From the NCBI GenBank assembly GCA_017387505.1, contig JAFOFB010000012.1, forward strand, positions 1-39,572: DNA of 39,572 bases, written 5' to 3'. The notes beneath the pieces were generated by a model. That model saw only the letters and a list, made by a program, of their open reading frames with translations. It ran no database searches and was not told the origin of the DNA. Shown here piece by piece: positions 35,946 to 38,864 of this stretch; positions within the stretch are counted from its first letter, which is position 1, and every line of letters begins with the position of its first letter. Source of the DNA: Methanocorpusculum sp. (lineage in GTDB: Archaea > Halobacteriota > Methanomicrobia > Methanomicrobiales > Methanocorpusculaceae). Both the position numbers and the translations under genes were made by a program.

Positions 35946-36752
35946 ATGAGACAGATTGCCCTGTATGGAAAAGGCGGAATTGGGAAATCCACCACATCGG
36001 CAAATCTCTCGGCGGCATTTTCTGAGAAGAACTTAAGCGTCATGCAGATTGGATGCGACCCGAAGCATGACAGTACAAGAATGCTCATGCATGGAAGATG
36101 GATTCCAACAGTTCTTGAGCAGATGTACGAAAAAAAGGACATCAAAGAAGAGGACATCATCTTTGAAGGCTTCGGCGGAGTGCGCTGTGTTGAAGCAGGC
36201 GGTCCTGAGCCTGGAATCGGCTGTGCAGGACGGGGAATTATTGCGACCTTCCAGCTTTTGGAAAAGATGAAGGCGCTTTTTGGGGACGTTGTGGTCTATG
36301 ATGTCTTAGGGGATGTTGTCTGCGGAGGTTTTGCTCTTCCGATGCGTGACGGATATGCAGAGGAGGTTTACCTTGTAACATCCGGAGAGCTGATGAGTCT
36401 TTATGCCGCAAACAACATCAGCAAGGCTGTAGCCAGACTTTCGGGCAGAAGTTCTGCGAAGTGCAAGCTTGGCGGTGTCATCTGCAATGCCAAAAATATG
36501 GATAATGAATATGAACTCGTTAAAGAGTTCGCAGAAAGAATCGGTTCGAAGCTGATTTGCTACATCCCAAGAAGCAAATCTGTGCAGGCGGCAGAGGTAA
36601 ACCGCATGACGGTAATCGAGCATGACCCGTCATCAGAACAGGCTGATGTTTACCGTAAGTGTGCGGATTCGATTCTAAATAATACAGATTTCAGAATACC
36701 AAATCCCTTATCACTCGAAGAGCTGGAAGACCTTGCAAGAAAGTATCTCTGA
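35946..36752 (+). CDS. NifH/BchL/CfbC-like nucleotide-dependent reductase
   Basis: A 268-residue homodimer-type iron protein. It has the P-loop [10 protein letters not shown] (7-16), switch region GCDPKHDST (36-44), the cluster Cys in [12 protein letters not shown] (C93) and the second cluster Cys in [12 protein letters not shown] (C126). It should hold a 4Fe-4S cluster between two subunits and pass electrons, with ATP hydrolysis, to the two following proteins. It lacks the C-terminal extension of true NifH. CfbC of F430 synthesis is the nearest well-known archaeal relative, but the downstream genes do not match a cfb cluster. It is the first gene of the three-gene operon. Confidence 0.92.
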
Positions 36753-37776
36753 AAAAAGACTTGGCGGCTGTGCTCTCGGCGGTTCGCTTGCTGTAACCTC
36801 CTTCATACGTGACGGTATTACTATAATTCATTCGCCCCAGGGCTGTGCTCATCAGATGTTTTCCGCTTACCATGCGATGGCCGCGGACTCTGATTCTTTC
36901 AGCATTCCAAAGGTGATTGTTTCAAACATCACAAACCGCGAGGTAATCTTTGGAGGAGAAGAGGCTCTTCTCGAAGCACTCGACCGTGCCGATGCAGAAA
37001 ATCCGGCTCTCATCTCGGTTGTTACCTCCTGCGTTCCGGAAACTATCGGTGATGATGTGGAAGGAGTATGTGCATCACATGCGGCGGCGGATAAAATTGT
37101 CTATGTTCCGGCGTCAGGTTTTCTTGGCGGTTCTTCTCAGGATGGAGAAAATATTGCGCTAATCAGCATCTCCAAACGTGCATGTCCTGCGGAAGTTGTT
37201 CCAAGGACTGCGGTAATTATTGGCGAAAAGAATCTGGAATCCGAAGTGGAGGAGAATTACGCTGAGGTATGCCGTCTTCTCTCCCGTCTTGGGATTACAG
37301 TGTCTCTTCGTTTCTGCAGAAACATTTCTGCAGCAGATATTGGGCTTCTTGGAACTGCTGATTTCTTTATCATTCGCGACGAGCGTGTGGAAGAAGCAGG
37401 AGTTGATATTGCAAATCGTTTTGGAAGGCCGTATGTTTCATCATTCCCTAAAGGACTTACCGGCTGTGTATCTTTCATTCGTGAGGCTGGTCTGGCCTGC
37501 GGGATTTCCGAGGCGGAAATCATGGAGGCGGTATCAGCCGAGGAGGAATATCAGGAGGAGCAGCTTTCAATTTTCAGGGAGCTTTCAGGGATGAAGGTGT
37601 ATCTTGGTTTCGAGCCGTTTGCAGGATGTCATGCTGTTGCCCGCGAGGCGATTGAGCGTCTTGGAATCATTGAGGATGCGGATGGTATGGAAATCAAACT
37701 GCCTTTCTATCTGCCTGTTGGTTTGTCTGGTGTTTTGAAGATGCTTTATCTTTGGAGGAGGGAGAAGAGAAGATGA
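36733..37776 (+). CDS. Nitrogenase-like catalytic subunit, NifD/NifE-like
   Basis: A 347-residue protein of the nitrogenase component 1 superfamily, shorter than NifD (about 480). It shows LGGCALGGS (C13), [12 protein letters not shown] (C38) and [13 protein letters not shown] (C100), the three-Cys pattern for a bridging iron-sulfur cluster, then [21 protein letters not shown] repeats of the three-domain fold. I see no clear equivalent of the FeMo-cofactor His, so it should not be a nitrogenase. The best start is TTG at 36733, overlapping the NifH-like gene by 20 bases; no ATG occurs before the conserved region. It ends in an ATGA overlap with the next gene. Confidence 0.85.
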
Positions 37777-38864
37777 CGTCTTGTATGGAAAATCCTGTGA
37801 TGCCGTGTGCGATGACCGGAGCCTGTGCTGTTCTTTCTGGCTTTTCGGGCCTGTCGGTTGTTGTTCACGGGTCATCCGGGTGCTATTATTATCCGAGGTC
37901 GATTCTGAGGGCTTCTCTTTATTCGACCTATCTTTTGGAGTCTGAGATAGTTTTTGGAACAGTTGACCGCCTGCATGAGGTGGTTTCATCTCTTGAGGCG
38001 GAGGGAAAACCTGTTGCTGTTGTAAATACATGTATCCCTGCTTTAACAGGCGAGGATTTGGCAAATGCGTTTGAGGGGACAAATGCTGTGTTTGTGGATT
38101 CTCCGGGTTTTTCGGGAAATGCGGAGGCAGGAGTGAAAGCGGCATACTCTGCTTTGGACATTAGAACTGCGGATGTTTCTGCTGTAAATGTTGATGGTGT
38201 GTGCGGGCTTGACCTTTTTGCACGCGGAAATCTTCATGAGGCACGCCGTATGCTTTCGGTTCTCGGTATTCCTGTCCGCTTATCGTTTGCCGCTGATTCC
38301 TATTCGAAACTGAAAGAGGGTGCTGCTCCATTTTCAGTTTCTGTGAATCCTGCATGGGATTCCGGTGTTGGTGAGAGCCTTGGCTCTTTCCTGTTTTTGG
38401 ATATCAAAGATACTATGTCGGCTTTGGAAAAGCGTTTCCCTGATGCAGATTATGCGGCTCTTGAGGAGGAGTGGAAGAAGGCGGATGAGACGATGTTCTA
38501 CTATGCGGATAAGTATCTGAGAAAGTACACTCCGCCAGTTTTGGCTGTTGCGGGACAGGGAAGTTACTGCCGCTTTGCTGAGGCGATGATGACGCGTTAT
38601 TTCGGCTCGGACATTGCTGTGTCTCTTCCACGCGAGGAGGTTACTGACTTTACAGAGATTTCGGAGAGGATTTCTGCGGCTCAGCCCGATTTGATTCTCG
38701 GTTCGACCTTTGAGGCTTCTGTTTATGATGCGGCATTTTTTGGTATTACGCATCCTGACAGGAGCAGGATTTCTATGTCTGCCCGTGCGGTTTCGGGTGT
38801 GGAAGGCGGGGTTATGTTTATGGAAGGGGTTTTGAATGCGCTGATGGATTACCAGAAACGGTGA
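37773..38864 (+). CDS. Nitrogenase-like catalytic subunit, NifK/NifN-like
   Basis: A 363-residue second component-1-type protein. The N-terminal Cys residues are [18 protein letters not shown]; then HGSSGCYYYPRS and VVNTCIPALTGED give the usual paired positions, and VDSPGFSGN matches the third structural loop of the fold. It differs enough from the preceding gene that the two should form a DK-type heterotetramer. I chose ATG 37773 (ATGA overlap, GGAGGAGGGAG upstream) over the TTG 21 bases earlier. No further nif-like or cofactor genes follow in the window. Confidence 0.85.
   Translation: MTSCMENPVMPCAMTGACAVLSGFSGLSVVVHGSSGCYYYPRSILRASLYSTYLLESEIVFGTVDRLHEVVSSLEAEGKPVAVVNTCIPALTGEDLANAFEGTNAVFVDSPGFSGNAEAGVKAAYSALDIRTADVSAVNVDGVCGLDLFARGNLHEARRMLSVLGIPVRLSFAADSYSKLKEGAAPFSVSVNPAWDSGVGESLGSFLFLDIKDTMSALEKRFPDADYAALEEEWKKADETMFYYADKYLRKYTPPVLAVAGQGSYCRFAEAMMTRYFGSDIAVSLPREEVTDFTEISERISAAQPDLILGSTFEASVYDAAFFGITHPDRSRISMSARAVSGVEGGVMFMEGVLNALMDYQKR

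Follow-up and report, generated by a model that had tools for sequence, protein, structure and literature searches.

A stretch of 39,572 nt from a Methanocorpusculum sp. (order Methanomicrobiales; contig JAFOFB010000012.1, assembly GCA_017387505.1), referred to here as the window, carries three overlapping genes, H, D and K, encoding a NifH-family iron protein and two proteins related to nitrogenase component 1. The interpretation favored here, to which we assign about an even chance, is that one ATP-driven iron protein, H, feeds both CfbD and the neighboring DK, a tetrapyrrole reductase. A more detailed version, in which DK is a Methanomicrobiales-specific heterotetramer that has a P-cluster, lacks a cofactor cluster, runs on the iron protein of F430 synthesis and reduces a (probably nickel- or F430-related) tetrapyrrole, is offered tentatively. 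The genes and the junction between D and K are:

35946-36752, + strand: H, NifH-family iron protein, CfbC by curated model; 268 aa; Fer4_NifH 347.4 bits; NF033200 (F430_CfbC) 422.7 bits against a curated cut-off of 402
36733-37776, + strand: D, component-1 (NifE/NifD-like) subunit with a shortened third domain; 347 aa; PF00148 155.7 bits, alignments and model
37752-38864, + strand: K, component-1 (NifK-like) subunit; 370 aa; PF00148 92.1 bits, alignments and model
37773-37776, + strand: ATGA, stop codon of D overlapping the start codon of K; read from the sequence

The three open reading frames (ORFs) of an earlier, first-pass annotation of the window were borne out, with coordinates as it gave them and with overlapping genes. 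D starts with TTG and overlaps H by 20 nt; the likely start of K is the ATG at 37773, and the ATGA at this junction may reflect translational coupling of D and K. Both component-1 proteins exceed the Oxidored_nitro (PF00148) cut-off of 28.6 bits. The nearest D protein is that of Methanocorpusculum sp. RGIG2143 (goat colon), at 92% identity. Since the ratio of nonsynonymous to synonymous substitution rates (dN/dS) relative to the nearest relative read was 0.013 for H, 0.14 for D and 0.05 for K, all three genes are maintained under purifying selection, with H the most constrained.

By the curated NCBIfam model NF033200, H is CfbC, the iron protein of F430 synthesis. Nine other H proteins were scored with the same model; three exceeded the cut-off (the H of G155, the cfbD-adjacent H of G502 and one H of G206) and six, including NifH and an H-D fusion, fell below it. 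Several organism names attached to our genome handles are assumptions: we take G502 to be M. acetivorans, G054 M. labreanum, G043 Methanolacinia, G058 Methanoculleus-like and G017 Methanoregula-like, and genus g35, which includes G155, is probably Methanospirillum. In the source genome (G000; 1.425 Mb in 24 contigs, 83.5% complete), H was the sole NifH-family gene found (PF00142 match), and contig C14 carries cfbA, cfbE, cfbD and cfbB consecutively, all of them exceeding their curated cut-offs, with no cfbC found beside them; mcrA was found as well. Since no other NifH-family gene was found in this assembly, H would be the reductase of CfbD, and it is the only candidate for that role in a genome that carries cfbA, cfbB, cfbD and cfbE. 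H is probably shared between CfbD and DK rather than dedicated to DK. The first-pass annotation had regarded the three genes as one self-contained system without cfb genes nearby. The latter statement is correct for cfbA, cfbB, cfbD and cfbE within the window but not for H, which passes the CfbC cut-off; the self-contained system was not sustained, because H passes that cut-off and is the only NifH-family gene found, and because cfbD lies on C14 without an adjoining cfbC. The separate cfbABCDE cluster that it proposed looking for is present as cfbA-E-D-B, minus cfbC. In a tree of H proteins, those of Methanomicrobiales formed one clade (support 100/98) that was not joined to the cfbC product of G502, with weak deep nodes; the Methanomicrobiales H may have taken over the CfbC role long ago.

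The distribution of the genes was surveyed in 199 Methanomicrobiales genomes. The D query matched in 193 of them, at a loose threshold that includes paralogues, and K (E 1e-15) and CfbD (E 1e-30) were each found in 182; both K and CfbD occurred in 168 genomes, K only in 14, CfbD only in 14 and neither in three. A NifH-like gene (E 1e-50) was detected in 189 genomes, as exactly one copy in 131 and as more in 58, and none was found in 10. Among the 131 genomes with a single NifH-like gene, 126 carry K and 116 carry K together with CfbD, and the single-copy state is also seen in single-contig genomes that are 98-99% complete (for example G011, G015, G031, G033, G034, G040, G064 and G096). K was found in none of the eight sampled genomes of g35 (E 1e-15), and G047 (99% complete) and G178, each with a single H and CfbD, lack it too. 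K-less genomes that carry H and CfbD (g35, G047, G178) are expected if CfbD needs H and DK is a second client of H. Beyond the order, a K profile was run over 392 genomes of the phylum and gave 82 matches of at least 400 bits, in 81 genomes, all of them Methanomicrobiales; the best match outside the order reached 110.5 bits. A pattern scan of genome contigs with the D of the window returned 58 relatives, 49 archaeal and 9 bacterial (the latter at 23-36% identity), and the archaeal ones were named Methanomicrobiales or families or genera of it, and once an unplaced euryarchaeote.

Residue conservation was assessed in alignments of 28 D and 28 K rows, out of 38 loci carrying both genes. C13, C38 and C100 of D and C19, C44 and C94 of K are invariant in all 28 rows, confirming the three-Cys pattern reported earlier for each component-1-like protein, and align to the P-cluster Cys positions of NifE/NifD and NifK, so that all six P-cluster Cys positions of NifDK are kept in D and K, three in each. 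At the cofactor-Cys position of NifE/NifD, D instead has an invariant Arg (R215). No invariant His beyond H33 was found in the 28 D rows, and none in the C-terminal half. The corresponding cofactor ligands are C275 and H442 of NifD and, for the L-cluster, Cys250 of NifE. The third domain of D is shortened in both the alignments and the structure model.

In phylogenetic trees D and K each formed one fully supported clade, apart from CfbD, NifDKEN, VnfDKEN and the Mar-like group, in agreement with the earlier description of two distinct component-1 proteins. A Pelotomaculum D, which scores 197.6 bits against MarD (9d9u_A), stands for the Mar-like group in these trees in place of the characterized R. 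rubrum MarDK. The first two trees used 15 and 11 of the 38 D and K rows each; for the second, 12 of 20 added loci were used, L227 being dropped because its frame did not start where expected. BchN, BchB and two G054 (Mlab-type) rows were present in the first tree and were dropped from later D/K trees as long branches. A D-only unrooted tree of 41 rows split D, together with the D part of H-D-fusion proteins, from 26 others (100/98), and K grouped with CfbD (93/89) in a 43-row tree of the K side. D and K scored 37.1 and 33.6 bits with the CfbD model TIGR03282 (cut-off 268.4), 75.4 and 41.9 bits with the nifE model (cut-off 505.1) and 59.5 and 25.6 bits with the BchB model (cut-off 490.35); D scored 34.5 bits against 419.95 for BchN and 35.3 against 529 for BchZ, and K 16.2 against 425.15 for BchY. 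Pfam and NCBIfam thus place D and K in the broad nitrogenase component-1 family only, far under the listed cut-offs of the characterized families. By the curated models, then, H falls within CfbC with no other cfbC found, although the H tree, with its weak deep nodes, does not place it there, and neither D nor K is CfbD; the term separate reductase, used in the first-pass annotation, fits DK and probably does not fit H.

Structure models of D and K had predicted local distance difference test (pLDDT) values of 89.8 and 91.0. The best PDB sequence matches of D were NifE and nitrogenase alpha chains. Foldseek gave NifD chains as the top matches of D and BchB as that of K, and VIA-align ranked BchB at the top for both, with Mar and nitrogenase chains within a few Z units. 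No CfbD chain was among the listed structural rows, which are not informative in this respect. Assigning a function from the structural ranking was rejected, the rows being too close to name one.

Gene order was compared across 41 loci picked for diversity, three of them from g35; the other 38 carry D and K. In all 38, D lies downstream of H on the same strand (gap <400 nt); K comes directly after D (gap <100 nt) in 30 and is displaced in eight. Recurrent neighbors are genes for a flavorubredoxin-like flavodiiron (FprA-like) protein, desulfoferrodoxin, TrkH and phosphoribulokinase, and leu/aks-type genes. Since these do not converge on one substrate, deriving a function from the neighborhood was rejected; the flavodiiron and desulfoferrodoxin genes suggest only nearness to oxygen-defense genes. 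In the three g35 loci H lies, as in DK-bearing relatives, between the phosphoribulokinase and flavodiiron families on one side and families 10, 12 (NusA-like) and 17 (HisE-like) on the other, and D and K are absent. At one locus, L036 (4428-12978), the genes surrounding H-D-K include ABC transporter genes of the Opp/Nik type, with the second ATPase gene in two pieces, as well as NikR and a gene that resembles CbiM/N but scores below cut-off; L037 has the same order of ORF families, so that this nickel-type context occurs in two of the 41 loci and is not main evidence. The window has a NikR gene at 27853-28272, about 7.7 kb upstream of H. An Orn/Lys/Arg-decarboxylase-type gene adjoins H-D-K in the window (34432-35850, - strand), and a similar-looking gene, read by eye, lies near a different nitrogenase-like H, D, K locus (L215, 4183-5661, + strand), which we take to be Mlab_1039/1040. 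Other component-1 genes were encountered elsewhere. A lone third one with three Cys is present in the Methanoculleus-like G058 (L216, about 9450-10703), directly downstream of genes resembling cfbA-E-D-B and of one that, by eye, looks like an aminotransferase gene, and another at G226:C45:13401-14516; a region of G017 (C1:2062830-2081341) contains three more nitrogenase-like DK pairs of the Mar-like group.

In the D-only tree, the D part of the H-D-fusion proteins, which likewise lacks the cofactor Cys, is the group closest to D. These systems differ in that H and D are fused and the K partner has one Cys, and two of three archaeal fusion loci lie beside a CobN-type chelatase and a FecCD/BtuC-family importer. 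L211 (2144-12698) combines the H-D fusion and K with a FecCD/BtuC-family permease, a CobN-type chelatase above cut-off and an AAA/VWA chelatase-type gene; L207 (2685-14467) combines them with a FecCD/BtuC-family permease, a CobN-type chelatase above cut-off and CbiK. From their gene content, both clusters look like systems for import, metal exchange and reduction of a tetrapyrrole. H-D-fusion systems are given as data not shown in Dos Santos 2012 (PMC3464626), which also describes H-E fusions and 'yellow' Nfl clades with three plus three Cys and no ligands of the iron-molybdenum cofactor (FeMoco). The ligand pattern of DK is as described for the latter clades, to which DK may belong. The same source gives the Methanocorpusculum pair Mlab_1040/1039 two plus one Cys; since DK has three plus three, that pair is another system. 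This was the only publication found that joins nitrogenase-like proteins with Methanocorpusculum. None was found that joins CfbC with Methanomicrobiales; figures and subscription reviews were outside the search, and an earlier depiction of DK is possible.

Among characterized systems, CfbCD resembles H-D-K in its iron protein: H scores above the CfbC cut-off, and no other H was found for the CfbD of the genome. CfbD is described as a homodimer that does not have all P-cluster cysteines (PMC12552129, PMC12176620), whereas DK consists of two distinct subunits with three Cys each, lies outside the CfbD clade and coexists with a separate CfbD. In DPOR, BchB is the top VIA-align match of both D and K; the difference lies in the cluster ligands, DK having three plus three Cys and DPOR an Asp ligand (PMC3464626). 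NifEN, NifDK and VnfDK have the component-1 fold of DK, and NifDK its six P-cluster Cys positions, but DK lacks the cofactor Cys, has a shortened third domain in D and forms separate clades.

In the favored mechanism H, as CfbC, would be the ATP-driven [4Fe-4S] iron protein of Methanomicrobiales, serving CfbD, encoded elsewhere with cfbA, cfbE and cfbB, in F430 synthesis and in addition D plus K. The latter would be expected to form a (DK)2 heterotetramer in which three Cys per subunit hold a P-cluster-type Fe-S cluster. Since no FeMoco or L-cluster ligand was found in D, the cavity would be expected to bind its substrate directly, as in DPOR and CfbD, with electrons passing from H via the interface cluster to the substrate upon ATP hydrolysis. 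A tetrapyrrole, possibly nickel- or F430-related, is the most likely substrate. Three lines, none of them decisive, point this way: H is the iron protein of a tetrapyrrole pathway, the sister fusion loci L211 and L207 adjoin the chelatase and importer genes, and no cofactor-cluster ligand was found in DK, a feature shared with BchNB and CfbD. The latter two are reported (PMC12552129) to hold neither a P-cluster nor an [Fe8S9C] cluster, whereas DK keeps all six P-cluster Cys.

Several observations weigh against this interpretation. The nearest relative of K is not settled, since its grouping with CfbD has a support of 93/89 and grouping with the fusion K was not rejected (approximately unbiased test, p-AU 0.358). 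The H clade is not nested with the G502 cfbC product, in a tree whose deep nodes are weak. None of the recurrent genes beside DK in the 41 loci names a tetrapyrrole substrate, and in g35 TrkH and the leu-type genes are also missing at the same place, so that more than D and K is absent there. The fusion sister has a K partner with one Cys rather than three, and its third archaeal locus (L199, not annotated) has no CobN-sized ORF in its ORF list. BchB may rank first simply because it is compact, with the chains of Mar and nitrogenase just a few Z units behind, and for D Foldseek ranks NifD chains first. Finally, 14 genomes have K without a CfbD match.

DK could instead provide a second route to the same F430 step, replacing or assisting CfbD as a heteromeric enzyme for Ni-sirohydrochlorin a,c-diamide or for a product of its partial reduction. 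In keeping with this are the 14 genomes just mentioned, which include the nearest kin of the window as judged by D identity (G098, G114, G094 and G141), the one shared CfbC-type H and the grouping of K with CfbD. This explanation nevertheless appears unlikely, as K and CfbD occur together in 168 of the 199 genomes and CfbD is present in genomes that lack K (g35; G047). In the four close relatives, a DNA search (E 1e-5) found no match anywhere inside the cfbA-E-D-B stretch, a pattern that suggests gaps in the assemblies or loss of the operon, and not replacement of CfbD alone. The segment L267 7330-12226, carrying cfbA-E-D-B, is missing between joined flanks in G098 and G114 (L303, L306), with a longer upstream-side stretch missing as well in G098. 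Replacement of CfbD by DK in these relatives was therefore rejected; the missing stretch may represent loss, relocation or an assembly gap. The presence of mcrA in three of the four also counts against a second route, and loss of methanogenesis in G098, G114 and G094 was rejected for the same reason; mcrA gave no match in G141, which is 69% complete.

DK might also be a NifEN-like scaffold that handles [8Fe-9S-C] clusters or similar ones, perhaps in the service of the MCR activation complex. This would fit the NifE and alpha-chain sequence matches of D and the L-cluster-type clusters carried by that complex (PMC12176620). We consider it quite unlikely, given the invariant Arg at the cofactor-Cys position, the shortened third domain, the restriction of strong K matches to Methanomicrobiales in the phylum sample, and MCR-bearing members of the order without K (G155 of g35, G047 and G178). 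Reduction of a C-S bond or sulfonate by an enzyme of the Mar/Isr type is distinctly improbable too. Mar enzymes are heteromeric and, as stated in PMC12552129, likewise have three plus three P-cluster Cys, and Mar chains are high among the structural matches, but D lies outside the Mar-like clade and has neither the [Fe8S9C]-ligand Cys nor an invariant His in its C-terminal half, and no NifB/MarB-type or sulfur gene was found among the annotated recurrent neighbor families. That H-D-K is self-contained after all, the true cfbC being missing from the assembly, could be argued from the 83.5% completeness of the genome and from the H clade lying apart from G502 cfbC; it is disfavored and seems very improbable, since the single-contig genomes of 98-99% completeness likewise show one NifH-like gene and no more, and H clears the curated CfbC cut-off.

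If H does serve both CfbD and a tetrapyrrole-reducing DK, this would add a new reaction to methanogen cofactor chemistry, carried out by a nitrogenase relative with a P-cluster yet no active-site metallocluster, and one essential iron protein of methane metabolism would have two clients. Since many of the genomes have a single H, genetics and reconstitution can test client sharing directly. A site of the P-cluster type that lacks a cofactor ligand would bear on how nitrogenases acquired their active-site cluster, and most of a methanogen order, gut species included, would carry an ATP-costly reductase beyond known assignments.

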